From contig JAGSPR010000151.1 in assembly GCA_018262455.1 (NCBI GenBank), forward strand, positions 1 through 18,297: a stretch of DNA of 18,297 bases, written 5' to 3'. Made by a program: the position numbers and the translations under genes. The DNA comes from Deltaproteobacteria bacterium (GTDB taxonomy: Bacteria > Myxococcota > Polyangia > Haliangiales > Haliangiaceae). Shown here piece by piece: positions 5,559 through 18,289 of the stretch (position 1 is its first letter; each line of letters starts with the position of its first letter). Under the pieces are notes generated by a model. It saw nothing but the letters and a program-made list of their open reading frames with translations. It made no database searches and was not told the origin of the DNA.

Positions 5559-6248
5559 TCACACTCGATCAGGCATCGCGTAGATCCGCGCGCCGAGCTG
5601 CTCGAGCAGCCCGGCGTCGTGGGACGCAAGGACGGTCGCGCCACCGTTGGTTGCGTGATCCCGGATCAGGCCGACGATCGCGTCGAGCCGCCTGGCGTCG
5701 AGCCCGTTGTCGGGCTCGTCCAGCACGAGCAGCTTCGGCGGGCCGATGAACGCGGCCCCCAGGCACGCGCGCCGGCGTTGACCGAGCGACATCCGCTCGA
5801 GCGCGGTGTCGCGGAGCTCGTCGAGTCCGAGGGCATCCCGGAGCTGCTGCGACGGCGGGTTGGCGCCCCGGGTGGCGGCACACAACGACCACAGCTCGTT
5901 GCCGAGCAGGAAGCCCGGCGGATCCGCGGCCTCCGGGACGTAGCCGAGCGCGCGGCGTGCTCGCTGCCGCTCGTCGCGCGAGCCCCACACCGATGCGCCG
6001 AGGATCACCACGCGGCCCTCGCGCGGCGCCAGCACGCCGGCCACGCAGCTGAGCAGCGTGGTCTTGCCGCAGCCGTTCTTGCCGACGATCCCGACGATCT
6101 CTCCAGCGCGCGCCTCGAGGTCTACGCCCTCGATCACGGTGCGCCCGCCCCGCCGGACCGCCAGCCGCTCGATCGAGAGCACCAGCTCCGCCTCGCGGAC
6201 CAGCGGAGCCTCGACGACCCGAGGAGCCTCGCTCGCGGGCTCGGTCAT
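5559..6248 (-). CDS. ABC transporter ATP-binding protein
   Basis: A 229-aa ATPase subunit that would power the membrane protein encoded just upstream. Walker A is GKNGCGKT at 56-63, Walker B is LLVLDEP at 173-179 with Glu178 as catalytic base, and the switch His is His210 (LASHD). The signature motif reads MSLGQRRR at 153-160 instead of LSGGQ, and the Q-loop position reads LGYVPE, as often in ABC-2-type exporters. About 25 residues precede the ABC fold. ATG 6246-6248 overlaps the TGA of the permease gene (ATGA). An open frame reaches further upstream to 6611, but that part is a shadow of the permease gene. Substrate is unknown; a single-copy ATPase plus one membrane protein suggests an exporter or a membrane-remodelling system. 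Confidence 0.93.
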   Translation of the reverse strand: MTEPASEAPRVVEAPLVREAELVLSIERLAVRRGGRTVIEGVDLEARAGEIVGIVGKNGCGKTTLLSCVAGVLAPREGRVVILGASVWGSRDERQRARRALGYVPEAADPPGFLLGNELWSLCAATRGANPPSQQLRDALGLDELRDTALERMSLGQRRRACLGAAFIGPPKLLVLDEPDNGLDARRLDAIVGLIRDHATNGGATVLASHDAGLLEQLGARIYAMPDRV

Positions 6249-7312
6249 GACCGCACCGTCAACAGGGCGAGCGCGCAGGTCGCCGCGAATGCGCCAGCGC
6301 CGGCCTCGCCAAACAGCCCGAGACAGAGCACGGCCGCCGCGGCGACGACGACCGAGCCGACCACGGCCCGAGCCGCGATCGTCGGAGAATCCTCGGCCGC
6401 GAGCAGGACGCGCGCGCAGCCCATCGCCGACGCCGCGGCCACGGTCAGCGCGGTCCCCGCGAGCCAGCACACCGTCGCGCCGTCGAGCTCGGCCAGGATC
6501 GAGGCGGCCGCGATCGCGATCACGGTGGCCGCGAGCTGGACGAGGGCGATCGCATAGACCACTGCCAGCGCCCGCGTCCGGTACGCGATCCCGAGCGAGG
6601 CGGCCATCCACGCGGTCGTGCGATGGGTCGCCAGGATCACCAGCAGCACGCCGACCTCCGCCGGCACGAGCACGATCGCGATGACCGAGGTCCCGACGAC
6701 CGCCGCGTCGGGGCCCGCGAGCGCGTTGTTGCGGACGAACAGCCCGGCGGTCGCCCCGGCGAGCAGCGACAGGCCCGCGCCGCGGACGAGGGCATCCCCG
6801 GCGCGGCGCCGCAACGCTCGCACGTGGATCGAGCGCAGCGCGCTCCCCTCGTCACGCCAGCCGGGCCACCCCGTCCGTAGCGGCGGCGGTCGCCAGCGCG
6901 CGAGCGCGAGGATCGCGAGGGTCACGGCCGCGACGACGGCGAGCCCGAGCAGCCCCTCTCCGACGATCCAGAGCGCCAGCCAGGGCAGCTGCAGCCCGAT
7001 CAGCGCGCCTCCGCCGATCCAGCGCGGCGCGTACAACGGTCCGGGTAACGACTGTAGATAAGCCGCGGCCTCGGCACGCACGATCAGGCGCGCGGTCGGC
7101 GCGAACACGAGCACCCAGGTGACCACGAGCGTGATGCCGACGCCGGCGTGATGCAGCGCGAGCCCGGTGAGCTCCGCAGGATGCATGCTCGACGGTCCGA
7201 AGATCACCCCTCCGGCGATCGCGGTGCCCACCCACACGGCCGATGCGCGGCGCCACGCGGGGACGATCACGGCCCGCGTCCACACGTCCATCCAGCGCGC
7301 ATCCCCGGTCAC
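6245..7312 (-). CDS. Putative ABC transporter permease, polytopic membrane protein
   Basis: A very Ala/Val/Leu-rich inner-membrane protein of 355 aa with about 8-10 hydrophobic segments, for example GVGITLVVTWVLVFAPTARL, VVGTSVIAIVLVPAEVGVLL, LAVVYAIALVQLAATVIAIA and VVGSVVVAAAAVLCLGLF. A basic cytoplasmic-looking loop (HVRALRRRAGDAL) lies mid-protein. I see no conserved family motif; the permease role follows from the overlapping ATPase gene. I chose GTG 7310-7312 because GGAGG sits 7 bases before it. ATG at 7354 would add 14 residues but has GGGGAG directly touching the start codon, which is too close. The gene is divergent from obgE, with 126 bases between starts and no clear promoter. Confidence 0.72.
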   Translation of the reverse strand: MTGDARWMDVWTRAVIVPAWRRASAVWVGTAIAGGVIFGPSSMHPAELTGLALHHAGVGITLVVTWVLVFAPTARLIVRAEAAAYLQSLPGPLYAPRWIGGGALIGLQLPWLALWIVGEGLLGLAVVAAVTLAILALARWRPPPLRTGWPGWRDEGSALRSIHVRALRRRAGDALVRGAGLSLLAGATAGLFVRNNALAGPDAAVVGTSVIAIVLVPAEVGVLLVILATHRTTAWMAASLGIAYRTRALAVVYAIALVQLAATVIAIAAASILAELDGATVCWLAGTALTVAAASAMGCARVLLAAEDSPTIAARAVVGSVVVAAAAVLCLGLFGEAGAGAFAATCALALLTVRS

Positions 7313-7316
7313 CGGT

Positions 7317-7324
7317 CTCCCTCC
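7317..7324 (-). promoter_or_regulatory. Strong ribosome binding site deciding the permease start
   Basis: On the minus strand this reads GGAGGGAG, with the GGAGG part 7 bases before the GTG at 7310-7312. It is the best Shine-Dalgarno match near the beginning of this open frame and favours GTG over the earlier ATG at 7352-7354. Confidence 0.6.
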
Positions 7325-7438
7325 GGCCGGTGCGGAGCGTCGGTCTCGGATCATCTCCCCGGGAACGTACCCGAAGAACGAGCGGGCCCGCTGGCTTCAT
7401 GTGCGCGCGCTCTCCATGTGATAGATCGACCCGCCGCC

Positions 7439-8434
7439 ATGCAATTCATCGACGAGGCCACGATCCACGTGAAGGCTGGCGCCGGCGGCAACGGCTGCGT
7501 CGCATTCATGGATGCCCGCGGCGGTCCGGCGGGGGGTGACGGTGGCGATGGTGGCAGCATCATCGTCGTCGCCGATTCGCACCTCGCCTCGCTGCTCGAC
7601 TTCAAGTATCGCCGGCACTACAAGGCCAAGCCGGGCGAGCACGGTCGCAACAAGGATCAGTACGGCGCCGCCGCCGAAGATCTGAAGCTGCGGGTCCCGG
7701 TCGGTACCGTGATCTACGAGGAAGGCACCGAGGCTCCGATCGCGGATCTCGCCGAGGACGGCGCGCGCTTCGTGCTCGCGAAGGGCGGGATCGGGGGCCG
7801 CGGCAACATCCACTTCAAGTCGCCGTGGAACCAGGCACCGCGCACCGCCGAGCCCGGCACTCCCGGGCAGGAGCGCACCGTCCGGCTCGAGCTCAAGCTG
7901 CTGGCCGACGTCGGGCTCCTCGGCTACCCCAACGTCGGCAAGTCGACGTTCATCAGCCAGGTGTCCCGGGCCCGCCCCAAGATCGCGGACTACCCGTTCA
8001 CGACCCTGGTGCCCAACCTCGGGGTCGTCCGGATGTCGGGCGAGCGCGACTTCGTGATCGCGGACATCCCAGGCCTTATCGAGGGTGCCGCCGAGGGCGC
8101 GGGCCTCGGCCTGCAGTTTCTGCGGCATGTCGAGCGTTGCCGGGTGCTGCTCCACATCGTCGAGGGCACGTTCACGACCGGCCCCACGCGCTCGCCGATC
8201 GAGGACTATCGCGTGATCAATGCCGAGCTGGGGCGCTATGCCCCCGAGCTCGCCAAGAAGCCGCAAGTCGTCGTGCTGAACAAGGTCGATGCCACGGATC
8301 CCGACCAGGTCGCCGAGCACCGGCGTGGCTTTGCCGCGCTGGGTGTGGAGCTGCTCACGATGTCGGCCGCGACCGGCGAGGGCACGGCCGCCGTGCTCGA
8401 GGCGTTGTGGTCTCACCTCCAGCGACCCCCATGA
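7439..8434 (+). CDS. obgE: Obg family GTPase (CgtA/ObgE), short form without OCT domain
   Basis: Obg is a GTPase needed for late 50S assembly and linked to the stringent response and cell cycle. Residues 1-157 form the glycine-rich Obg fold (FIDEATIHVKAGAGGNGCVA, GGDGGDGG, DLKLRVPVGT, LAKGGIGGRGN, FKSPWNQAPRTAEPGTPGQE). The G domain has G1 GYPNVGKST at 162-170, G2 DYPFTTLVPNLG, G3 DIPGLIEGAAEGAG from 209, G4 NKVD at 281-284 and a G5-like MSAATGEG. At 331 aa it ends right after the G domain, so the optional C-terminal OCT domain is absent. The usual basic segment between F and GGP in the first loop is about four residues shorter than in the E. coli and Myxococcus proteins (FMDARGGP here). The start is ATG 7439, which gives the family N-terminus, although no clear Shine-Dalgarno sequence precedes it. 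Confidence 0.97.
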   Translation: MQFIDEATIHVKAGAGGNGCVAFMDARGGPAGGDGGDGGSIIVVADSHLASLLDFKYRRHYKAKPGEHGRNKDQYGAAAEDLKLRVPVGTVIYEEGTEAPIADLAEDGARFVLAKGGIGGRGNIHFKSPWNQAPRTAEPGTPGQERTVRLELKLLADVGLLGYPNVGKSTFISQVSRARPKIADYPFTTLVPNLGVVRMSGERDFVIADIPGLIEGAAEGAGLGLQFLRHVERCRVLLHIVEGTFTTGPTRSPIEDYRVINAELGRYAPELAKKPQVVVLNKVDATDPDQVAEHRRGFAALGVELLTMSAATGEGTAAVLEALWSHLQRPP

Positions 8435-8624: not shown

Positions 8625-9443
8625 ATGCGAGCTTCTTCGACTGTTGTGGTCTTGTCATCGCTGCTGATCGCGGCGAGTGCGGCGGCGGGTTCAGGTGACA
8701 AGGCGGGCGGAACACCTTCCGCCCCGGCCAAGACCACGCCGGCCAAGACGGGAAGCGGCAGCGCGGCAGCGACGGGCAGCGCCGGCGCGCCGGCGCCCTC
8801 GCCAGATCCGGTTCCTCCAACGGATCCAGCGTCGGTCAATCCTGCGGACATGCCGACCGCCGTGCGGATGCGCCGGCTCGAGCAGCAGACGCAGGCGCTC
8901 AAGGAACGCGCCTGGCAGCTCAAGGCCCGCGTGCAGATGCTCAAGGAGCAGATGCTCGGCGGTGGCGTCGGTGCGCAGACGCTGATCTCGCATGCGAACG
9001 ACATGGGCAGCTCGTTCCGGCTCACCAAGTTGATCTACTCGCTCGACGGTACGCAGGTGTTCGTCCGCACCGACGATACCGGCGACAACCTCTACAAGAC
9101 GAAGAGCTTCGACATCTTCTCGGGCCCGATCTCGCCCGGCAACCACACCCTCGCGGTCGTCGCGACCTATCGCGGCCACGGCTACGGCGTGTTCGAGTAC
9201 CTCTCGAAGTACACGTTCACCGCCAAGGGCGGCCAGACGTTCACCGCCGGTGAAGGCAAGGTCGCCAAGGTCGATTGCAAGGGCTTCGAGAAGGGCGGTC
9301 CCACCACGCCACTCGAGAAGCGCGCCTCGGTCGAGTGCAAGGTCACGCAGGTGGCGCAGGAGCGTCCGGCTGACAAGGCCCCGGTCGCGACGCCGCCGAC
9401 CCCGGCCAGCACGCCGGCTCCCGCCACCACGCCGGGGAAGTGA
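8625..9443 (+). CDS. Secreted coiled-coil / beta-domain protein, first gene of the envelope operon
   Basis: The 272-aa product begins with a signal peptide (hydrophobic 6-20, likely cleavage after ASAAA near residue 21). A Pro/Ala/Ser/Gly linker runs to about residue 75, then a coiled coil at 78-110 (RMRRLEQQTQALKERAWQLK). The folded domain at about 118-240 contains LISHANDMGSSFRLTKLIYS, SPGNHTLAVVATYRGHGYGV and GGPTTPLEKR. I recall a similar domain in other myxobacterial proteins, sometimes labelled dihydrolipoamide acetyltransferase, but nothing here supports that enzymatic role: there is no lipoyl or acyltransferase motif. Cys218 and Cys238 could form a disulfide. The C-terminus is again Pro/Thr/Ala-rich. 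GGAG eight bases before ATG 8625 is the ribosome binding site. The next gene begins three bases after the stop. Likely periplasmic; function unknown. Confidence 0.88.
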   Translation: MRASSTVVVLSSLLIAASAAAGSGDKAGGTPSAPAKTTPAKTGSGSAAATGSAGAPAPSPDPVPPTDPASVNPADMPTAVRMRRLEQQTQALKERAWQLKARVQMLKEQMLGGGVGAQTLISHANDMGSSFRLTKLIYSLDGTQVFVRTDDTGDNLYKTKSFDIFSGPISPGNHTLAVVATYRGHGYGVFEYLSKYTFTAKGGQTFTAGEGKVAKVDCKGFEKGGPTTPLEKRASVECKVTQVAQERPADKAPVATPPTPASTPAPATTPGK

Positions 9444-9446
9444 AAC

Positions 9447-11984
9447 ATGCGTCGCCGATCGCGTTGGCTTGCGTCGTTCCTGTTCAGTGCGCTGGGTCTG
9501 CAGGGGGCTGCGCGCGCCGACATCGACCGGCAGCTCGCATCGTACGAGACCGAAGCGCGGGCGATCGGCACGGATCTGCCCCAGCCGAACCAGCTCACCG
9601 GTGCCGCCGGTCAACGCCGGCTCGTCGACGCAGAGGTCGCCTACTCGCTCGGTGACTACGACACGGCCGCGCTCATGCTGTTCGATCTGTCGAGCAAGCC
9701 GGGCGCGGATCAGCAGGCGGCTACCTTCTACCTCGCCGAGTCGCTGTTCCAGAAGCACGATCGCGGCGCGGCACGCAGCTATTACGAGCAGATCGTCGCC
9801 GCGAACAACCCGGCGGACAGGTACTACCAGCCGAGCCTGCTGCGGTTGATCGAGATCGCGATCGCGATGCGTGACACGTCGAACGTCGCGACCCACCTCG
9901 CGGCGCTCGATCGGATGTCGCCCGGGCAGCGGCTGCCCGAGGTGCCCTATGTCCGCGGCAAGTTCGCGTTCTTCGACGGCAAGCTCGACGAGGCCCTGGG
10001 GTACTTTCAGGAGGTCCCCAAGGGCAGCGAGTTCGAGCTCCAGGCGCTGTACTACACGGGCACCACGCACGTCGCGAAGAAGGATCTCGGCCGTGCGACC
10101 GAGGTCTTCACCGACCTGATCGCGCGCAAGCCGCGGACCCCCAACGATCGCCGCGTCATCGAGCTCTCGCAGCTCGCGCTCGGCCGGCTGTTCTACGAGC
10201 GTGATCAGCCATCGAAGTCGATCGACAGCTACCTGCTCGTCGATCGCCACAGCGATCTGTTCCCCGACGCGCTGTACGAGGTCGCGTGGGTCTACGTGAA
10301 GGGCAAGCAGTACGACAAGGCGCTGCGCGCCCTCGAGCTGCTCGCGATCTCGGAGCCCAACTCGAACAACACGCCGACGGTCCGGATCCTCGAGGGCAAC
10401 CTGCGGATTCGCAAGGCCCAGATGATCCGCAACGCGAAGATCAGCGGCACGCTCGACGCGAACTTCAAGGACGCCGACCCCGGTCTCGAGTACGACAAGG
10501 CGGCCCAGGTCTTCACCCAGACCCACGATCTCTACATGCCGTCGTACACGACGCTCGCGCAGATGGTCGACGGTGGCGGGGATCCGGCGCGGTACCTCGA
10601 CCAGATCGCCGGGCGCTCGCCCCACGTGTTCCAGTCTGCGGCGCCGATCCCGGAGGCCGCCGCACAGTACCTGCGTGACGAGCCAGAGGTTCAGCGGGTC
10701 GTGCGCGTCGTGGTCGATCTCGGCGACGTCGAGGCGAACATCGCGCAGTCCGAAGCGATCATCTCTCACCTCGATGGCGTGCTCGCCGCGGGAGATCGCA
10801 GCGCGGTCTATCCGGCGCTCCAGAGCCGGCGCTCTCGGATCGGTCAGATCCAGGACGATCTGATCAAGATCCGGAGCGAGCTCGCCGATCAGCAGCTCAA
10901 GCTCGTCGATGGCGCGGGCTCGCTCGCGGCGCTGACGGCGACGCGCCAGCAGCTGATGCAGCAGTACGCCGCGATGCCGAACGCCGAGCAGGCGTTCGCC
11001 GATCGCAAGGCGCAGGCGCAGGCGCAGTACGACACCGTCGAGCAATCGACGGCCGAGGTCAGCGGGATCATCGACTCGACGCAGGCGGTCGCGGTCGCGC
11101 TTCGCAAGTACGCCGTCGATGCGACTCCGCAGCTGCCGGCCGACCAGCAGACCGCGGTCACGCAGACGCTCGATCAATCGGCCACCGAGGCCGCGGCGAT
11201 CGAGGCCGAGCTGACCGCGATCCAGCGCGAGATCGAGCTCGGTCGTGATCTCTCCGGGGTCGGCGACGAGGCGATGGCGAAGGCTCAGGAGGCGCGCCGT
11301 CAGCTCAAGGCGGCCGAGGACGCCGAACACCGCGAGCTCGCCGGGCTCGCCAGCTCGAGTCGGGATCGCAACAAGTCGCAGCAGCTCGTCGGGCTCGCCG
11401 ATCGCGCGACGCGCGTCGCCGACTCGCTCACCCAGACCGAGGCCCAGATCGACTCGGCCGCAGAGCGCGGGATGGCGCAGGTCAAGGCCGCGCTCGTCCA
11501 GGAACGCACCAACGTCACCGCCTACCGGACCGAGCTGGCCGCGTATGACGCCGAGGTCAAGTCGATCGGCGGCTCGGTGCTCGGCGGCAGCTTCAAGGAC
11601 GTCAAGGCGAAGTTCTACGACATCATCATCCGCACCGACGTCGGCAACGTCGATGTGAGCTGGTCGCAGAAGGATGACAGCGACGACGACCTCAAGCGGC
11701 TGAACCTGTCGCGCCAGCGCGAGCTCAAGCAGCTGAAGGATGAGTTCCGCGACATCCTCGAGGGCCCGGGCTCGCTCAAGCCCAGCCCCGCGAAGCCCGC
11801 GCCGCTCGAGGCGCCGCCTTCGGACTCGAAGGCCCCCTCCGGGAGCCCCGACAAGGGAACGTCCGATGGACGCGTGACGCCGGGGACTGGTACGGGTTCA
11901 CCGACCCAGCCGTCGGTGAAGCCCGACTCGTCGAAGGGCAGCACACAACCCAAGGGCACCCCGCCCAAGGGAGGTACGCGATGA
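9447..11984 (+). CDS. Exported TPR and coiled-coil protein (845 aa)
   Basis: Signal peptide with cleavage likely after GAARA (about residue 24), so periplasmic. Residues about 50-330 are TPR-like helix pairs (VAYSLGDYDTAALMLFDLSS, FYLAESLFQKHDRGAARSYY, VRGKFAFFDGKLDEALGYFQ, YEVAWVYVKGKQYDKALRAL). Residues about 420-710 are long Ala/Gln/Glu-rich helices with coiled-coil character. A distinct block at 719-770 (KAKFYDIIIRTDVGNVDVSW, then LKRLNLSRQRELKQLKDEF) looks conserved by composition. The last 75 residues are a Pro/Ser/Gly/Lys tail. There are no cysteines. Translation starts at ATG 9447 with GGGGAAG upstream, and the stop overlaps the next start (ATGA). Its place beside gltD/E/G-like genes suggests a scaffold role comparable to the TPR proteins GltC or GltI, but I cannot assign it to either. 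Confidence 0.9.
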   Translation: MRRRSRWLASFLFSALGLQGAARADIDRQLASYETEARAIGTDLPQPNQLTGAAGQRRLVDAEVAYSLGDYDTAALMLFDLSSKPGADQQAATFYLAESLFQKHDRGAARSYYEQIVAANNPADRYYQPSLLRLIEIAIAMRDTSNVATHLAALDRMSPGQRLPEVPYVRGKFAFFDGKLDEALGYFQEVPKGSEFELQALYYTGTTHVAKKDLGRATEVFTDLIARKPRTPNDRRVIELSQLALGRLFYERDQPSKSIDSYLLVDRHSDLFPDALYEVAWVYVKGKQYDKALRALELLAISEPNSNNTPTVRILEGNLRIRKAQMIRNAKISGTLDANFKDADPGLEYDKAAQVFTQTHDLYMPSYTTLAQMVDGGGDPARYLDQIAGRSPHVFQSAAPIPEAAAQYLRDEPEVQRVVRVVVDLGDVEANIAQSEAIISHLDGVLAAGDRSAVYPALQSRRSRIGQIQDDLIKIRSELADQQLKLVDGAGSLAALTATRQQLMQQYAAMPNAEQAFADRKAQAQAQYDTVEQSTAEVSGIIDSTQAVAVALRKYAVDATPQLPADQQTAVTQTLDQSATEAAAIEAELTAIQREIELGRDLSGVGDEAMAKAQEARRQLKAAEDAEHRELAGLASSSRDRNKSQQLVGLADRATRVADSLTQTEAQIDSAAERGMAQVKAALVQERTNVTAYRTELAAYDAEVKSIGGSVLGGSFKDVKAKFYDIIIRTDVGNVDVSWSQKDDSDDDLKRLNLSRQRELKQLKDEFRDILEGPGSLKPSPAKPAPLEAPPSDSKAPSGSPDKGTSDGRVTPGTGTGSPTQPSVKPDSSKGSTQPKGTPPKGGTR
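11967..11975 (+). promoter_or_regulatory. Very strong ribosome binding site for the GltD-like gene
   Basis: AAGGGAGGT ends five bases before ATG 11981 and lies inside the last codons of the preceding gene. It is close to a full anti-Shine-Dalgarno match. It fixes the start of the 1135-residue protein and implies high translation independent of the ATGA overlap. Confidence 0.8.
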
Positions 11985-14900
11985 AGCTCCTCCGCCTGGC
12001 AGTCGCCGTCGTCACGACCGCTGTCCTCTCCCACGGCGCGCTCGGCCAGCCCGGTCAGCCCCCGGCTCCCCCGCCTGATTCGGGCTCGGGCTCGGGCTCG
12101 TCGCCGGCCGTCCCGGTCACCGAGCCTGCGACTGCGCCAGGGCTCGGCACCCAGCCGGCCCCACCACGACCGCCGGCCCCGCCGGTCAACGTCACGCCGC
12201 TGCAGCTGAGCGACAAGGAGCTCGCGGAGCTCAAGGACATCGAGGCCGACTACACCCGCTTCCTGGGCTCGGCCAACGCGCATGACGCGCGGATGCGTGC
12301 GATCGCGCGCCGCGAATACGACACCCGGACCGAGGATCTGACGAAGCGCTACGCCGAGCGGATCGCCAAGACCGAGGCGGGGAGGAGCAAGCACCACGGC
12401 GACACGATCGTGCTGCTCGAGAAGTTCCTCAAGAACCACCCGAACCACGACCAGTTCACCCCGGACGCGATGTTCCGGCTCGCCGACCTCTACCTCGCGG
12501 CCGCCGACGACGAGGTCGACGCCCGGCTCGCAGCTCAGGAGCAGCTCGCGCCCGATCCGAACCGCCCCGACGCGGCGGCGATCATCGCCGACTACAGCCG
12601 CTCGGTCAGCCTGTGGGAGGACATCCTCAAGCGGTTTCCCCAGTATCGCCAGACTCCGTCGACGCTGTACCTGCTCGCGTACTACGGCAAGCAGAAGGAC
12701 GAGCGCCGGTCGCTGCAGATCTTCCTTTCGCTCGCGTGCGCGAACAAGTTCAAGTGGAGCGATCCGCCGTCCAAGCCGCCGACCCGCGAGGAAGCGATCA
12801 AGCGCGCGGAGGCCAAGCAGCTGCGCGATCCGTACGCCGACTGCACGCCGTATCCCGGTAGCGACGTCGAGCTGATCCGCCATGCCTGGGTGCGCGGTGT
12901 CGCTGACTACCAGTTCACGGTGCCCGGCGAGATCGACGAGTCGATCGCCGCGTACCTCAAGGTCGCCAACGGCGGCAACGACTCCAAGCTCTACGCCGAG
13001 TCGCTCTACAAGCTCGCGTGGTCCTACTACAAGCGCGATCGCCTGCCCGACTCGATCCGTCGGTTCGACGAGAGCGTGCAGCTCTACGATCAGATCGTCG
13101 CGAGCGGTGGCCAGCCGGCGCTCGAGCTCCGCGACGAATCGATCCAGTACATCGCGGTCGCGTTCACCGATCCATGGGAGGGCGAGACCAACTCCGATCC
13201 GAACAAGGCGATGGCGCGGGCCCGCGAGTTCTACAAGGGCAAAGAGAACCAGCCGCACGTCCGCGATGTCTGGGTCGCGATGGGCAAGGCGTTCGCCGAG
13301 CTGCAGGCGTGGGACCAGGCGGTCGATGCGTATCGGACCGCGATCGGCCCCCCGTGGGAGCTCAACTCCAAGAACCCGGTCGTCCACCAGGAGATCGTCA
13401 ACGTGTTCACGACGATGCGCAAGGACTACGAGGGCGCCAAGACGAAGGACCCTGCCGCCAAGGCGGAGTACCTCGCGATGTACAACAAGGCCGTCGAGCT
13501 CTACCGCACGTTCATCACGACGTACCCCGAGTCCGACTACACCTACGAGTTCACCTACAACCAGGGCGAGGCGCTGTACTGGAGCGAGCGCTACCCCGAG
13601 GCGATCGTCGCCTACACCTGGGTCCGCGATCACCGCGATCTCGGCACCTCGTTCTACATCGACTCCGCACGCAGCATCGTCCAGTCCTACGAGGCCGAGG
13701 CCCAGCGCCTCGTCAACGACGGCAAGCTCGCGCCGCTCAAGGTGCCGACCGTCGCCGAGCTGAAGACGCTACCCCAGCCGTTCCAGGCCCAGCCGATCCC
13801 GGACATCTACCTCAAGCTGCAGGCCGAGTACGACAACTTCCAGAACGTCGTCAACGATCCCGCCGCGGCGCCCCAGCAAGGCACGAACGCCGCGCTGATC
13901 AGCCTCGCGTACTTCCACGTCGACGATGCGATCCTCCGGTTCGCCAAGGTCATGGACAAGTTCTGCGGCCAGCCCCACGCGGCGAAGGCGAAGGACGGCA
14001 TCCTCGCGATCTACGAGGCGCAATCGAACTTCGATGCGATCGAGGCGACGAACAAGAAGTTCATCACCGCGAAGTGCGGCGATGCCAAGACGATCGGCGA
14101 TGCGATCGCGCAGAACCGCTCGCTCAACTTCTCGCGCGCCAACGCGCTCTATGCCGGCAAGCAGTACGCGGCGGCCGCCGAGTCGTTCTACCGGTTCTAC
14201 AAGACCGCGCCGCAGACCGACGTCGATCTCCCGGTCGCGCTCTACAACTCGGCGGTCAGCTACAAGCTGGCGGATCGGCCGAAGACGGCGATCTCGCTGT
14301 TCAAGGAGTTCGCCGCGAACCCCGCGAAGAACTTCCGCGAGAGCCCGTTCTACCTCGACGCGCTGCGGCTCCAGGCCGGCAGCTACCAGGCCGCGTTCGA
14401 CTACGACAACGCGGTGCGCACGTACCTCGAGCTCTACGACACCACGAAGAAGGCGCAGCGGCTCAAGATCAAGGCGCCGGATCCGCTGCCGGGCGAGGCG
14501 CCCCGCACCCTCGAGCAGATCGGGCTCGACGCGCTGTACAACGCCGCGCTCGCGTCCGAGCTCAACCGCGACTTCAAGAAGGCGATCGACCTCTACACGC
14601 AGTACCAGCGGATCGAGAAGGATCCGCGCAAGATCGATCGCGCGATGTGGTCGGTGATCGGCATCCACCGCCAGTCGGGCGATGTCGGCTCGATGACCGA
14701 GCTCCAGGACCGCTGGCGCGCGAAGTTCGGCGGCGCGCCGAACAACGAGGACGACTTCGTCCAGACGTTCTACGACGAGTCGCAGCTCCGCAAGCGCAAG
14801 GGTCAGACGGTCGCGGCGAAGGCCGCCGGCCAGGCCGCGATCGACGCGTGGAAGAAGCGCGGCGCGATCAAGAACAGCCGCGGCGCCAAGCTCGCCGGCG

Positions 14901-15388
14901 AGTGGGAGCTCCAGTTCGCCGAGGACAACTTCGCCGGCCGGTGGGAGCCCTACGCGATCAAGAAGGCGGCGCGCAACCTCAAGGAGTCCGAGGCCCAGGG
15001 CAAGGCGCTCACGGACGAGAAGACCCGCGCCGAGGACAAGTACATCGCGCTCGATCCATACGGCGTCGCCGAGCTGTCGATGGCGGCCAAGGTTCGCTAC
15101 GGCGAGATCCAGTACAACTACGGCCAGAAGCTCGCCGACGCGCCGATCCCGGTGCCGGTCGCCAAGAGCGAGAGCGCGACGGCCGCCTACCAGACCAAGC
15201 TCGACGCCAACGTCCAGAAGTACCTCGACGCCGCCAAGGCGCAGTGGATCCAGGTGGTCGACGTCTCGAAGCAGGCCGGCGTCTCCAACAAGTGGAGCCG
15301 GCTCGCACTCGAGAATCTCGGTCGCGAGTTCCCGAAGGAGTTCACCGTGTTGCGCCAGGAGCTGGTCCAGGGCACGGAGGCCCCGTGA
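11981..15388 (+). CDS. gltD: Large periplasmic TPR protein, GltD (AgmU)-like
   Basis: A 1135-aa exported protein: signal peptide (cleavage near GALG, about residue 22), then a Pro/Gly/Ser linker to about residue 72. After that nearly the whole chain is TPR and related helical repeats, such as DAMFRLADLYLAAADDEVDA, YAESLYKLAWSYYKRDRLPD, FTYNQGEALYWSERYPEAIV and VALYNSAVSYKLADRPKTAI. Length, periplasmic location and position directly before a TPR lipoprotein match AgmU/GltD, the periplasmic TPR component of Myxococcus gliding complexes, and its Nfs paralogue NfsD. The closing segment WSRLALENLGREFPKEF also looks family-like. Four cysteines fall in two close pairs (253/288 and 662/699), possible disulfides. 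The start overlaps the preceding stop (ATGA). The paralogue (gliding, sporulation or other) cannot be decided from sequence alone. Confidence 0.82.
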   Translation: MKLLRLAVAVVTTAVLSHGALGQPGQPPAPPPDSGSGSGSSPAVPVTEPATAPGLGTQPAPPRPPAPPVNVTPLQLSDKELAELKDIEADYTRFLGSANAHDARMRAIARREYDTRTEDLTKRYAERIAKTEAGRSKHHGDTIVLLEKFLKNHPNHDQFTPDAMFRLADLYLAAADDEVDARLAAQEQLAPDPNRPDAAAIIADYSRSVSLWEDILKRFPQYRQTPSTLYLLAYYGKQKDERRSLQIFLSLACANKFKWSDPPSKPPTREEAIKRAEAKQLRDPYADCTPYPGSDVELIRHAWVRGVADYQFTVPGEIDESIAAYLKVANGGNDSKLYAESLYKLAWSYYKRDRLPDSIRRFDESVQLYDQIVASGGQPALELRDESIQYIAVAFTDPWEGETNSDPNKAMARAREFYKGKENQPHVRDVWVAMGKAFAELQAWDQAVDAYRTAIGPPWELNSKNPVVHQEIVNVFTTMRKDYEGAKTKDPAAKAEYLAMYNKAVELYRTFITTYPESDYTYEFTYNQGEALYWSERYPEAIVAYTWVRDHRDLGTSFYIDSARSIVQSYEAEAQRLVNDGKLAPLKVPTVAELKTLPQPFQAQPIPDIYLKLQAEYDNFQNVVNDPAAAPQQGTNAALISLAYFHVDDAILRFAKVMDKFCGQPHAAKAKDGILAIYEAQSNFDAIEATNKKFITAKCGDAKTIGDAIAQNRSLNFSRANALYAGKQYAAAAESFYRFYKTAPQTDVDLPVALYNSAVSYKLADRPKTAISLFKEFAANPAKNFRESPFYLDALRLQAGSYQAAFDYDNAVRTYLELYDTTKKAQRLKIKAPDPLPGEAPRTLEQIGLDALYNAALASELNRDFKKAIDLYTQYQRIEKDPRKIDRAMWSVIGIHRQSGDVGSMTELQDRWRAKFGGAPNNEDDFVQTFYDESQLRKRKGQTVAAKAAGQAAIDAWKKRGAIKNSRGAKLAGEWELQFAEDNFAGRWEPYAIKKAARNLKESEAQGKALTDEKTRAEDKYIALDPYGVAELSMAAKVRYGEIQYNYGQKLADAPIPVPVAKSESATAAYQTKLDANVQKYLDAAKAQWIQVVDVSKQAGVSNKWSRLALENLGREFPKEFTVLRQELVQGTEAP

Positions 15389-15400
15389 GCCCGAACGTCG

Positions 15401-15408
15401 AAGGAGAT
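15401..15408 (+). promoter_or_regulatory. Ribosome binding site deciding the start of the TPR lipoprotein
   Basis: AAGGAGAT, with GGAG five bases before ATG 15412, favours this codon. The competing in-frame GTG at 15385 overlaps the previous stop as GTGA but would place nine extra residues before the signal peptide. Confidence 0.7.
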
Positions 15409-15411
15409 CCC

Positions 15412-16518
15412 ATGACCACCTCGCGCGTTACCAGATCCATGACCCGACGCCTCGGGGCGGTTGTCGTGTGCTCGTTGCTCGCCGTCGCCTGCGGCGGCGG
15501 CAGCAAGGGCGGCAAGACCACGCCGAGCAACCAGGCCGGCTCTGGCGATGGCACGCAGTCGATGACCGACCCGGGCGATCCCACCGGGGGCGGCGCGGCT
15601 GGAACGGGCGCTGGCAGCGGCGCTCCCGGCGGCGGCAGCGGTGGAGCTTCGACCGGCGGCGATCCAATCGACGTCGGAACCGGTGTCGGGGTGGTCGCGC
15701 CGAACCTCGATCCCGATCCCGCGCAGGCCAAGCAACAGGTCGACGCGCACCTGTCGATCGCGAAGAACGCCCTCTCGCAGCCCACCCCCGATGGTGACAC
15801 CGCGCTCCGCGAGGCTCGCGCGGCGCTGGCGCTCGACGCGACGAGCGTCGACGCGGCGGCGTACGTCGCGTTTGCCTACTATCACAAGAAGCTGTTCGAC
15901 ACCGCCGAGCTCGTGCTCGACGATCTGTTCAAGCGCGAGGCCGCGAAGTCGAACGCGAACGTCTACTACGTCTACGGCCTCATCTACGACCGGACCAACC
16001 GACCCGAGCGCGCGCTCGTCGCCTACAAGAAGGCTGTCGAGCTCGATCCCAAGCACGCGAGCGCGCTCGTCAACCTCGGCGTCCACCAGCTGCAGAACAG
16101 CCAGTACGGCGAGGCGCAGACGACGTTCGAGCGCCTGACCAAGGAGTTCGGTCGCAACGACGTCATCACCTTGACCTCGCTCGGCTCGGCGTACCGCGGT
16201 CGCTCGGCGGACTATCCGCAGGGCGCTCCGGAGCGCGATCAGTTCGTGCGCACGGCCGAGGCTGCCTACAAGCGCGCACTCCAGGCGAACGGGGACTACG
16301 GCCCGGCCTACTACAATCTCGGACTGCTCTACCTCGACACCGATCCGTTTCCGGGCCTGCCCGACACGTTGCAGCGGCTAGGTGCGGCCAAGGCGTACTT
16401 CGAGCAGTACAAGAACAAGCCGGGCTTTGACCTCAAGCTCTACGAGAGCCGCGTCAAGGACGCCGACAAGGCGATCAAGCGCGCCCAGAAGAAGCAGAAG
16501 CCCGCGAAGACTCCCTGA
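15412..16518 (+). CDS. gltE: TPR outer-membrane lipoprotein, GltE (AglT)-like
   Basis: A 368-aa predicted lipoprotein. The signal peptide has basic residues, then LGAVVVCSLLAVAC with acceptor Cys27 in a somewhat atypical lipobox (Ala at -3). The +2 residue is Gly, not Asp, which favours sorting to the outer membrane. A Gly/Ser/Thr-rich tether covers about residues 28-100. Residues about 105-330 are TPRs: EARAALALDATSVDAAAYVA, VYYVYGLIYDRTNRPERALV, AYKKAVELDPKHASALVNLG and ALQANGDYGPAYYNLGLLYL. The C-terminus is Lys-rich. A TPR lipoprotein placed between a GltD-like TPR giant and a GltG-like protein fits AglT/GltE of the Myxococcus gliding machinery (NfsE in the spore-coat paralogue). It follows the GltD-like gene by 23 bases. 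Confidence 0.83.
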   Translation: MTTSRVTRSMTRRLGAVVVCSLLAVACGGGSKGGKTTPSNQAGSGDGTQSMTDPGDPTGGGAAGTGAGSGAPGGGSGGASTGGDPIDVGTGVGVVAPNLDPDPAQAKQQVDAHLSIAKNALSQPTPDGDTALREARAALALDATSVDAAAYVAFAYYHKKLFDTAELVLDDLFKREAAKSNANVYYVYGLIYDRTNRPERALVAYKKAVELDPKHASALVNLGVHQLQNSQYGEAQTTFERLTKEFGRNDVITLTSLGSAYRGRSADYPQGAPERDQFVRTAEAAYKRALQANGDYGPAYYNLGLLYLDTDPFPGLPDTLQRLGAAKAYFEQYKNKPGFDLKLYESRVKDADKAIKRAQKKQKPAKTP

Positions 16519-16553
16519 ACTTCCGGCGCCATCCCTCATACTCGGAGAACCAC

Positions 16554-16880
16554 ATGCAGCACCCACCCAGGATCTCGTCGCCCGCCACCCTGTGGATGGT
16601 GTGTGTGGTCGGCATGCTCGCCTACGCACCCACCGCAGCGCGCGCCGAGGGCTGTCCCGATGAGGATGCCGCCGAGAAGAAGCAGGGCAAGTTCCACATC
16701 GAATACATCAACGGCAGGCCGGTCACCGTGATCGACACGATCGTGTCGGTGTGCGGCAAGGTCCCGCGGCCGAGCGTCGTCTATGTGCTCACGGCCAAGA
16801 ACATCGACTACGAGTGGGAGAACCTCAAGCAGGACTTCATGCCGCTCATCCTGGCGACCGTGAAGAAAGCGCCCTTCTGA
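16554..16880 (+). CDS. gltF: Small periplasmic protein in the GltF position
   Basis: A 108-aa exported protein with a signal peptide (hydrophobic TLWMVCVVGMLAYAPTA, cleavage likely after ARA at residue 31). The mature 77 residues include two cysteines, Cys34 and Cys67, that could pair. Beta-like strands follow (KFHIEYINGRPVTVIDTIV, SVVYVLTAKNIDYEWE), ending in a helix-like LKQDFMPLILATVKKAPF. No enzyme motif is visible. The symbol rests mainly on position: in Myxococcus a small gene, gltF, lies between gltE and gltG, and this one has a suitable size and export signal. GGAGAA six bases before ATG 16554 is the ribosome binding site. The TGA overlaps the next ATG by one base (TGATG), so production is coupled to the membrane partner. 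The gene itself is clear; the name is tentative. Confidence 0.62.
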   Translation: MQHPPRISSPATLWMVCVVGMLAYAPTAARAEGCPDEDAAEKKQGKFHIEYINGRPVTVIDTIVSVCGKVPRPSVVYVLTAKNIDYEWENLKQDFMPLILATVKKAPF

Positions 16881-18289
16881 TGGCGACCCAGCGCCCACCC
16901 CAGACTCAGGCTCGGCGGCCCGCGAACCCAGGCAACGGTGCCCAGCCGCCACGCCCTCGCATCCTTCGCATCGGCGTGTTGCTCGGAGGCAAGATCGTCG
17001 AGGAGCGGCTGATCCGCGAGCGCACCGCGGTCTCGATCGGCCAGTCGATGAAGAACACCTTCTCGATCCCGATCGAGGCGTTGCCCCTCGAGTTCACTCT
17101 GTTCGCGCTCGACGAAGGCAAGTACTCGCTCCGGTTCTTCGACAAGATGGATGGTCGGCTCAGCGACGCAGGCGGCCAGGTCAACACGCTCGACGCGCTC
17201 AAGGCGCGAGGCGCGCAGAGTCAGGGCAACTACTGGCAGGTGCCGCTCACCGATAGCGCGCGCGGCAAGCTCTCGCTCGGCGACCTGACGATCCTGTTCC
17301 AGTTCGTCACCGAGCCGCCTCGTCAGCCCAAGCCGATGCTGCCCGCTTCGGTGCGCGGCACGTTCGCAGACCGGTTCGATCCTCGGCTGCTCGTCATCCT
17401 CGGTGCGTCGATCCTGGCGCACTTCGCGATCGTGATCATCGCGCTCATGGGCGACATCGAGAAGAAGACCGCCGCAGAGCGCGCGTACGAGCTCACATTC
17501 GAGCCCGAGAAGTATCAGGTCGAGCTCAAGCCCGAGCCCGAGCCGGTCGCCGAGGCCGGATCTGCCGCGGGCAGCGCCGCCAAGCCGGCGACTCCGGACA
17601 AGCAGCCCGCCAAGGACCCGGGCCACAAGGATCCCGGCGGTCGAGACGCCAAGAAGGACGTCGCGATGACCGAGGATGACGCCGAGGCGTTCGCGAACAA
17701 GATGACCGTCGATGGTCCGAACGGCACCGACGCCGCGGACATCAACAAGCGGTCTCCAGGCGCCGACCTCAAGGCCCAGACCGACGCGATCCGCGAAGGC
17801 AACAAGACGGTCGCGGTCGGCGGCGGCACCGGGCGCGGTTCGCGCGGAGATGGCGACGCACGCGTCGGCACCGGCACCGGCACGAAGATCAATGGCCCCG
17901 GCGGCATCGACAGCGCGGGCGGCGGCAAGACCAGCGAGAAGGGTCCGTCGGGCCGGATCTCGGTGAGCGACAAGAAGTCGTTCGACGAGTCCTCGCTGAC
18001 GCCCGACATCGTGCTCTCGAAGATCCAGAGCGTCTACATGGCGGGCCTCAAGCGCTGCTACAAGACCTACCTCAACAAGGATTCCAGCGCGCGCGGCAAG
18101 GTGACCCTGTCACTCACCGTCAACGCCACGGGCCGCACGGTGAATGGCTCGGCCAAGGGCTTCGCGAGCGAGGTCGACGACTGCATCACCGCGCAGATGG
18201 GTGGCTGGCGGTTCCCGATCCCGAAGGACAAGGACGGCGAGGCGAGCGAAGCGACCTTCGCCATCACGCTCCAGCTCGTTCCGGACTGA
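16880..18289 (+). CDS. gltG: Single-pass inner-membrane protein with AgmX/PglI-type C-terminal domain, GltG-like
   Basis: A 469-aa bitopic protein. Residues 27-145 form a cytoplasmic beta-rich domain resembling a degenerate FHA fold (ILRIGVLLGGKIVEERLI ... TAVSIGQSMKNTFSIP ... GKLSLGDLTILFQFV). One membrane helix lies at about 169-190 (LLVILGASILAHFAIVIIAL). A long periplasmic linker of about 200-370 is first charged and Pro-rich (ELKPEPEPVAE), then Gly-rich. The C-terminal domain at 375-469 carries the AgmX/PglI pattern: DIVLSKIQSVYMAGLKRCYK, GKVTLSLTVNATGR, DDCITAQMGGWRFPIP. It is TonB-like and has the conserved cysteine pair Cys393/Cys435. This architecture matches PglI/GltG; the paralogue GltJ/AgmX instead has zinc-finger and GYF domains, absent here. 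The start is ATG 16880, overlapping the previous stop. It presumably contacts a TolQR-type motor and the TPR proteins. Confidence 0.87.
   Translation: MATQRPPQTQARRPANPGNGAQPPRPRILRIGVLLGGKIVEERLIRERTAVSIGQSMKNTFSIPIEALPLEFTLFALDEGKYSLRFFDKMDGRLSDAGGQVNTLDALKARGAQSQGNYWQVPLTDSARGKLSLGDLTILFQFVTEPPRQPKPMLPASVRGTFADRFDPRLLVILGASILAHFAIVIIALMGDIEKKTAAERAYELTFEPEKYQVELKPEPEPVAEAGSAAGSAAKPATPDKQPAKDPGHKDPGGRDAKKDVAMTEDDAEAFANKMTVDGPNGTDAADINKRSPGADLKAQTDAIREGNKTVAVGGGTGRGSRGDGDARVGTGTGTKINGPGGIDSAGGGKTSEKGPSGRISVSDKKSFDESSLTPDIVLSKIQSVYMAGLKRCYKTYLNKDSSARGKVTLSLTVNATGRTVNGSAKGFASEVDDCITAQMGGWRFPIPKDKDGEASEATFAITLQLVPD

Follow-up and report, generated by a model that had tools for sequence, protein, structure and literature searches.

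Several described envelope machines resemble the locus analyzed here. The Glt machine (G1/G2, with AglRQS) drives gliding in Myxococcus xanthus, and its paralogue, the Nfs spore-coat machine (G3), works with ExoA-I; according to the accessible portion of one report, Nfs uses AglRQS to move spore-coat polymer, and the nfs and exo locus tags lie apart (PMC3858216). A core complex consisting of gltC, gltD, gltE and gltG with aglRQS was described by Luciano et al. (2011) as group B, present in Gammaproteobacteria, Geobacter and others, and the accessible text of that study describes no porin or outer membrane polysaccharide export (OPX) protein with it. The role of this core machine behind gliding was left open, as was the purpose of clusters G4 and G5 and of a second motor (M2). 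Composite translocons of an OPX protein and a beta-barrel protein have also been described (Saidi 2022; Schwabe 2022), and the portions accessible to us mention neither a Glt-type scaffold nor a motor; PMC9603273 never uses the term "Glt", and its 3 occurrences in PMC9601211 all refer to a gltB control strain.

The stretch of DNA analyzed here (the window; 18,297 nt from a soil myxobacterium) carries six adjacent open reading frames on the plus strand, in the order A-GltC-GltD-GltE-GltF-GltG, and ends 8 bases past the G stop at 18289. The distance from the upstream obg GTPase gene (7439-8434, plus strand; GTP1_OBG match) to A is 190 bases, followed by 3 (A-C), -4 (C-D), 23 (D-E), 35 (E-F) and -1 (F-G) bases, so that the first-pass annotation was right in reporting six same-strand genes with gaps of at most 35 bases and two overlaps. 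A coding pattern in GC content by codon position is present across the block (E and G being judged within longer frames). All six products are exported or membrane proteins, as that annotation had claimed, and the cluster is not the gliding (Glt) cluster but belongs to a separate paralogous group, designated type II here, with the Glt-type clusters designated type I.

Gene A (8625-9443), the marker gene of this cluster type, encodes an exported protein of 272 aa in which an Ala/Pro-rich linker is followed by a coiled coil and a beta-sandwich. It represents a family of its own; its structure model has a mean pLDDT of 51 and gave no PDB match at E ≤ 0.001. The second gene (9447-11984), left unnamed in the first-pass annotation, encodes a GltC-like exported protein of 845 aa with TPRs and a coiled coil (NF033756, E 3.3e-13, 49.2 bits against a cut-off of 450), and a C profile made from type II rows only recovered C in 10/10 type I loci with E-values of at most 5e-31. 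In the GltD-like exported protein (11981-15388; 1135 aa), Pfam and NCBIfam see TPRs only. As a lone query the window D retrieved none of the type I D proteins at E 1e-3, and a type II-only profile recovered D in 10/10 type I loci with E-values of at most 1e-47. The GltE-like TPR lipoprotein (15412-16518; 368 aa) matched NF033758 (E 4.9e-15, 55.4 bits, cut-off 225) when submitted from position 15400. The small exported protein encoded next (16554-16880; 108 aa) matched no Pfam or NCBIfam family and is called GltF-like from its position between E and G and from weak profile matches, which a type II-only profile gave in 7/10 type I loci (E 3e-6 to 1e-2) and an iterated profile in 8/10. Earlier E-values for D and F came from iterated profiles that had absorbed type I rows, and the test was repeated with type II rows only. 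The assignment of the last four genes as GltD-GltE-GltF-GltG consequently holds for D, E and G, with F placed by position and weak similarity.

The last gene (16880-18289) encodes a short GltG-like transducer of 469 aa, composed of an FHA-like cytoplasmic domain (about residues 27-145), one transmembrane helix (168-191), a disordered linker and a TonB-like C-terminal domain (358-468); Foldseek returned no PDB match at E ≤ 0.001. It matches NF033760 over profile positions 202-632 only (74.1 bits, cut-off 650) and NF033768, the AgmX/PglI tail, above its cut-off (43.0 bits, cut-off 40). The NCBIfam models for GltE, GltG and the AgmX/PglI tail thus all match, the first two below cut-off, and the TPRs in C, D and E, the single helix in G and the G tail are confirmed. 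A 19-residue hydrophobicity scan (threshold 1.6) picked up hydrophobic N-termini in A, D and E, one strong transmembrane segment in G (residues 170-188) and no segment over threshold in C and F, whose N-termini are signal-peptide-like by eye; the predicted signal peptides and lipobox therefore fit the scan for A, D and E, and the reading by eye for C, F and the E lipobox (LAVAC).

The type II cluster is assigned outside the Glt cluster because the scores of the window's proteins are far below the Glt equivalog cut-offs tested, because relatives carry a separate Glt-type cluster and because the trees split. A further paralogous cluster, as envisaged in the first-pass annotation, is present as a separate Glt-type cluster in 10/10 related genomes checked; a giant TPR gene was found in 9/10 of these type I loci, within the stretch covered, and none was mapped after type II G. 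The G tree separates type I (10 rows) from type II (38 rows) at 100/100, and the C tree (33 type II rows) and D tree (34 type II rows) separate from the 10 type I rows at SH-aLRT 100, all trees being rooted on type I for want of a true outgroup, a rooting that leaves the ancestral form raised in the first-pass annotation no more than a possibility. None of GltH, GltI, GltJ and GltK is among the six genes (the window ends after G). The GltG cut-off was passed by no genome of 237 or of 57, type I copies included; the cut-off is therefore narrow, and there is no close M. xanthus relative among these genomes to anchor G4. Since GltG-family proteins were found in 232/237 genomes, G alone says little; the GltC, GltD, GltE and GltG families occur together in the cluster and make up the family set of the core complex of Luciano et al. 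By comparison with the Glt machine, type II has homologous GltC, GltD, GltE and GltG in unchanged order, a GltF placed by position, and in orthologues a motor of the same TolQR-type class, but its GltG is short, missing roughly the first 200 profile positions, A stands in front, and in orthologues protein X, a porin (B) and an OPX protein (O) follow where Glt has the giant TPR gene.

The fullest orthologous clusters, distributed over the phylum, read (Obg)-A-C-D-E-F-[TolQ-TolR-TolR]-G-X-porin-OPX, and the six genes are thus not the self-contained scaffold that had been proposed. Counts were made in 80 loci drawn from A matches, picked by hand from the listed matches roughly by E-value rather than at random, with many weaker rows and minus-strand matches too near a contig start left out. 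Where enough sequence was available, C and D followed A in 73/73 loci, E in 64/64 and F in 62/63, an order conserved more than by chance, and G lay within 14.5 kb of A in 49/59 and was missing in 10/59. These neighbors do not fit a plain TonB/TolA family lacking Glt neighbors. Obg was upstream of A in 19/73 loci of one set and in 6/7 and 8/8 of two others, and is hence frequent, not universal.

Downstream of G, 49 hand-picked loci with at least 4.5 kb of sequence contained the porin in 45 cases, X in 43 and OPX in 37 (missing in 12/49); all three were present in 36/49 and none in 4/49. A complete motor (Q and two R) was located between F and G in 20/53 A-drawn loci with G. In a smaller set of 20 loci drawn from G matches, none of X, B and O was seen in 4/14 and the full motor in only 2/16; four loci with no A in the stretch (L027, L032, L033 and L034) were left out of these counts, three of them showing Q-R-R-G-X-B-O and L033 none of it. 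X, B and O were all absent from the 20 control loci, which surround other members of the GltG family (in one of them, L056, the sequence stops at G), and for porin B the difference between type II loci and controls gave a Fisher p of 9e-14. Pfam identified Q as MotA_ExbB, R as ExbD, O as Poly_export plus SLBB and B as BBP2_2 (E ≤ 0.01 in 8/12 B proteins), and matched nothing in two TolQ-like remnants. Genes for Wzc, a UDP-sugar dehydrogenase, a DegT aminotransferase and Wzy_C stand close by in several loci. The OPX of Sandaracinus amylolyticus, which is encoded next to Wzy and Wzc, falls together with the OPX proteins found after type II G, in agreement with WzaB synteny as given in the accessible portions of two publications (PMC7310880, PMC7484181).

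Type II shares with Nfs its paralogy to Glt and, on the reading proposed below, action with a proton motor on a Wzx/Wzy polysaccharide, and differs in having, in orthologues, the exporter in the cluster and a complete motor in the 20/53 loci, although Nfs is set apart here by its description, not by sequence. The fullest orthologues share with group B the core-complex families in one cluster, again likened by description, and with the OPX/beta-barrel translocon a short OPX and BBP2-type porin neighbors.

In M. xanthus, the accessible text assigns MXAN_1922 as the GltD paralogue of cluster G4 (PMC3169522), and MXAN_1916 and MXAN_1915 as WzpB and WzaB, an "orphan" pair for BPS export (PMC9603273). 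The GltD paralogue of G4 thus lies no more than seven tags from a class 3 OPX and the porin that goes with it, in the porin-then-OPX order of type II, and since D-E-F-?-G-X-B-O would take exactly eight locus tags, the published tags are consistent with a type II cluster made up of G4 beside WzaB/WzpB. Judged by tags and order, G4 is probably the orthologue of type II, although A and X are absent from its published description as far as accessible. A search of open-access full text found no paper tying G4 to WzaB/WzpB, none reporting a tested function for G4, and no mention of MXAN_1917, 1918, 1920, 1921, 1923 or 1924.

Gene A was detected in 178/237 Myxococcota genomes and co-occurs with X: in raw genome counts that ignore kinship, 162 genomes have both, 16 have A without X, 3 have X without A and 56 have neither (161, 17, 1 and 58 without three weak X matches at E > 1e-5). 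In the window's own group, the space between F and G contains no motor (0/11 loci of the close-relative set), and X is present in 8/11 genomes, always next to B or O, and was not found in the other three (G001-G003). In this group and in S. amylolyticus the scaffold lies apart from X, B and O, and the organism of the window would be expected to carry its motor and exporter partners at other loci.

Motor and export pore are linked to the scaffold in many relatives, which suggests that the type II machine assists in driving polysaccharide through the envelope to the outside; the glycan-secretion guess of the first-pass annotation is now backed by synteny and co-occurrence. We regard it as reasonably probable that the products of the six genes make up the scaffold and transducer part of a second machine of the Glt/Nfs type, probably orthologous to G4, that serves Wzx/Wzy polysaccharide export. 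The parts would form one complex in which an inner-membrane TolQ-TolR-TolR proton motor would move the transmembrane helix of the short GltG, and the TonB-like tail would carry this movement across the periplasm to protein A and the scaffold formed by GltC, GltD, GltE and GltF. The scaffold, with force from the motor reaching the exporter, would act at the outer membrane on a WzpB/WzaB-type porin/OPX exit and protein X, so that polymer may be drawn or moved out. The cargo would be a polysaccharide, probably an acidic one. Polymer synthesis and the Wzc co-polymerase are regarded as the driving forces of OPX export; to our knowledge, a dedicated proton motor for it would be new.

The same parts could instead form a surface conveyor, which moves or packs polymer downstream of secretion in the manner of Agl-Nfs while the porin and OPX export alone. 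Nfs acts after Exo secretion and, in the accessible portion of that report, is not co-localized with BtkA-marked export sites (PMC3858216), and the separation of scaffold from X, B and O in the window's group and S. amylolyticus would fit as well; we nevertheless consider a conveyor rather unlikely, given that X-B-O stands right after G in most A-drawn loci. General envelope maintenance of the Tol-Pal or Ton kind, with the polysaccharide neighbors reflecting co-regulation only, could account for the TolQR/TonB-like parts and for the obg and ribosomal-protein neighbors seen in some lineages, but becomes improbable when at least one of X, B and O follows G in 45/49 loci and in none of the 20 controls, and when A co-occurs with X. 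That type II is a further engine for gliding or another kind of motility, using the polysaccharide as slime or adhesive, could be argued from its paralogy with the Glt-type cluster and from the reported aid of slime to adhesion of Glt proteins (PMC7310880, accessible portion). The related genomes checked already carry the separate Glt-type cluster, nine of them with the giant TPR gene, and disruption of MXAN_1922 left motility normal according to the accessible text of Luciano et al. (PMC3169522), which, if orthology holds, makes such an engine highly improbable; a polysaccharide assay of this mutant was not found in that text.

A polysaccharide-export role would also bear on the origin of the family, as the phylum-wide cluster joins core parts to a polysaccharide exporter and offers a route from a secretion engine to a motility engine. 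It is tentatively possible that the earliest machine of the Glt/Nfs family was a polysaccharide exporter powered by protons, whose function type II, with its scaffold, motor and OPX/porin exit joined in an operon-like block, has kept across the phylum, and that Glt and Nfs are later duplicates, for gliding and for spore-coat wrapping, in which the force chain would have been kept and the cargo changed. Type II would then be an energized outer-membrane polysaccharide export machine, which would explain G4, the "orphan" WzaB and perhaps the second motor MXAN_3003-5.

Separate motors are encoded elsewhere in the genomes of the window's relatives. In the motor tree, one set of separate motors (Ma) nests with the in-cluster motors at only 90/83 and on long branches, and part of the testing left out rows whose branches were very long. 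The AU test kept both the grouping of in-cluster motors with Ma (p 0.30) and that of Ma with a further set, Mb (p 0.36), and the grouping of in-cluster motors with Mb was borderline (p 0.049).

The six genes at 8625..18289 on the plus strand of the window (the marker gene A and the GltC- to GltG-like genes C, D, E, F and G) represent a paralogous machine of the Glt/Nfs type, here termed type II, which is widely conserved and tied to polysaccharide export; our searches of the literature found no publication that joins machine and exporter. The window reads gntR-gatC-gatA-gatB-rplU-rpmA (rpmA called by eye), an ABC transporter ATPase with a hydrophobic partner on the minus strand (5559-7354), obg and the six genes, whose open reading frames, frames and tight spacing, re-derived from the window sequence, agreed with the first-pass annotation. 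Named close protein matches were from MAGs of Kofleriaceae, Myxococcales, Myxococcota or Deltaproteobacteria. NCBIfam models assigned the second, fourth and sixth genes to GltC, GltE and GltG, all far below the equivalog cut-offs; the AgmX/PglI tail previously proposed for G scored over its own cut-off. By Pfam, C, D and E contain TPRs, and A, F and G match no family. Since G aligns only to positions 202-632 of the 650 in the GltG profile, it lacks the first 200 profile positions; its predicted structure runs from an FHA-like sandwich through a single TM helix and a disordered linker to a TonB-like end.

Mapping of 40 loci fetched around GltG-family matches, using iterated profiles started from the window's genes, separated two cluster types. 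Type I, the Glt type, was found in 10 loci from ten genomes with the order C-D-E-(F)-long G-TPR; the giant TPR gene is present in nine of these loci, and the tenth, L056, stops at a contig end. As read from gene A matches, all ten genomes also carry the window type (loci L005, L023, L025, L029 and L034-L039). Profiles built from type II rows alone matched C, D, E and G in 10/10 type I loci, some of the best matches to gene E being the TPR giants, and the corresponding F profile gave weak matches in seven. The two types separate with full support in the G, C and D trees, which do not give their age order because the root was placed on type I by choice. Additional short G genes that lack neighbouring C, D and E were seen in L041, L042, L049 and L051, with similar flanking gene sizes in the last three; these could possibly represent another paralogous system.

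Among 80 loci picked from gene A matches, C and D follow A in all 73 loci with at least 7 kb of sequence, E is present in 64/64, F in 62/63, and G within 14.5 kb in 49/59. Exporter genes follow: of the 49 loci with at least 4.5 kb after G, 43 carry X (the gene that follows G in the fullest clusters), 45 the BBP2-type porin and 37 the OPX gene (on either strand), with all three in 36 and none in four (L100, L104, L113 and L132); in L100 (G012), an X match lies just past the end of the fetched stretch. In a second set, 16 A-bearing loci drawn from G matches, the 14 with enough sequence gave X in nine, porin in nine, OPX in ten and none of the three in four; among the 11 loci of a close-relative set, the five with enough sequence gave X and porin in two and OPX in none. 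None of these genes was found in 20 other GltG-family loci (L056 having no sequence after G). Pfam confirmed BBP2_2 and Poly_export/SLBB for the exporter genes. Obg-A-C-D-E-F without G in the fetched stretch was observed in L107, L110, L117, L118, L119, L122, L123, L124, L126 and the shorter L114; in three of these genomes (G035, G054 and G084), A and X share a contig at a distance of 22-34 kb. Gene A is duplicated in tandem in L104, L105 and L113.

Across the phylum sample, gene A was found in 178/237 genomes, mostly as a single copy, a protein resembling the window's G in 179 (some matches being weak), and both together in 174. A and X co-occur strongly, a signal inflated by shared ancestry.

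Near the exporter genes of the scanned loci are genes for Wzc (Wzz+GNVR+AAA_31), Wzy_C, a UDP-glucose/GDP-mannose-type dehydrogenase, an epimerase, a DegT aminotransferase, a Gfo/Idh oxidoreductase and a hexapeptide transferase. In the window's own group (G001-G006, G094, G226, G230, G241 and G232; best G matches 44-75% identical), X is present in 8/11 genomes and adjoins porin or OPX in all eight. G005 and G230 carry OPX, X and porin with Wzc- and Wzy-like genes (called by eye) in one cluster, and G006 has X and OPX roughly 8 kb downstream of G. CysC (adenylyl-sulfate kinase) directly follows G in five (L001, L002, L005, L006 and L007) of the nine close-relative loci with downstream sequence (L001-L008 and L010), and several of them also have CysN close by, which hints at a possibly sulfated cargo. 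Close relatives also carry downstream a second GltG-like gene (L010:8458-9756, L004:2916-4229, L002:7710-9080 and L007:16627-18189), with 38-41% identity to the window's G in the measured cases. Genes for an exported protein and a Ser/Thr kinase come next, the kinase being confirmed in L010 and called by eye elsewhere.

The system can tentatively be connected to Myxococcus xanthus. In Sandaracinus amylolyticus (G182), the OPX gene adjoins Wzy and Wzc, the neighbours published for its WzaB orthologue (PMC7310880, PMC7484181), and its product clusters with the OPX proteins of type II loci (11-row group, SH-aLRT 97). MXAN_1922 is the GltD paralogue of M. xanthus cluster G4, described as of unknown function in PMC3169522, which reports normal motility upon its disruption; MXAN_1916 and MXAN_1915 are the porin WzpB and the OPX protein WzaB (PMC9603273), the latter termed "orphan-like" (PMC7310880). 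We infer that the order D-E-F-(one gene)-G-X-porin-OPX fits tags MXAN_1922 to 1915 one by one; the portions of the literature searched contained no link between G4 and WzpB/WzaB.

The set of parts fits a proposed mechanism in which PMF would be passed from a TolQR-type motor through the GltG TM helix and TonB-like tail to the TPR scaffold and an outer-membrane exit. Published precedents are the two-hybrid interaction of AglR with GltG (PMC3169522) and transport of spore-coat polymer by Agl-Nfs (PMC3858216). The force may serve export or, alternatively, the movement of polymer outside the cell. The second M. xanthus motor, MXAN_3003-5, is reportedly not needed for motility and sporulation (PMC3169522, PMC3858216) and is therefore a candidate motor of the type II machine, for which the motor tree gives only hints.

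Motor genes, confirmed by Pfam as MotA_ExbB and ExbD, vary in position. A TolQ homologue lies between F and G in 22/53 A-drawn loci, 20 of which also have two TolR homologues; a full motor was found there in 2/16 A-bearing G-drawn loci and in 0/11 close-relative loci. In some lineages lacking the motor there, the F-G interval holds a gene with faint similarity to TolQ (E 2.5e-5 to 7e-3), which looks like a motor remnant; two genes in this position had no Pfam match. All five window-group genomes from which two motor loci were fetched (G003, G005, G094, G232 and G241) carry a pair of complete TolQ-TolR-TolR sets located away from the cluster, and the single locus fetched from each of G004 and G226 is likewise complete. 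S. amylolyticus carries two complete, adjoining and divergent TolQ-TolR-TolR sets (L160:7010-11267).
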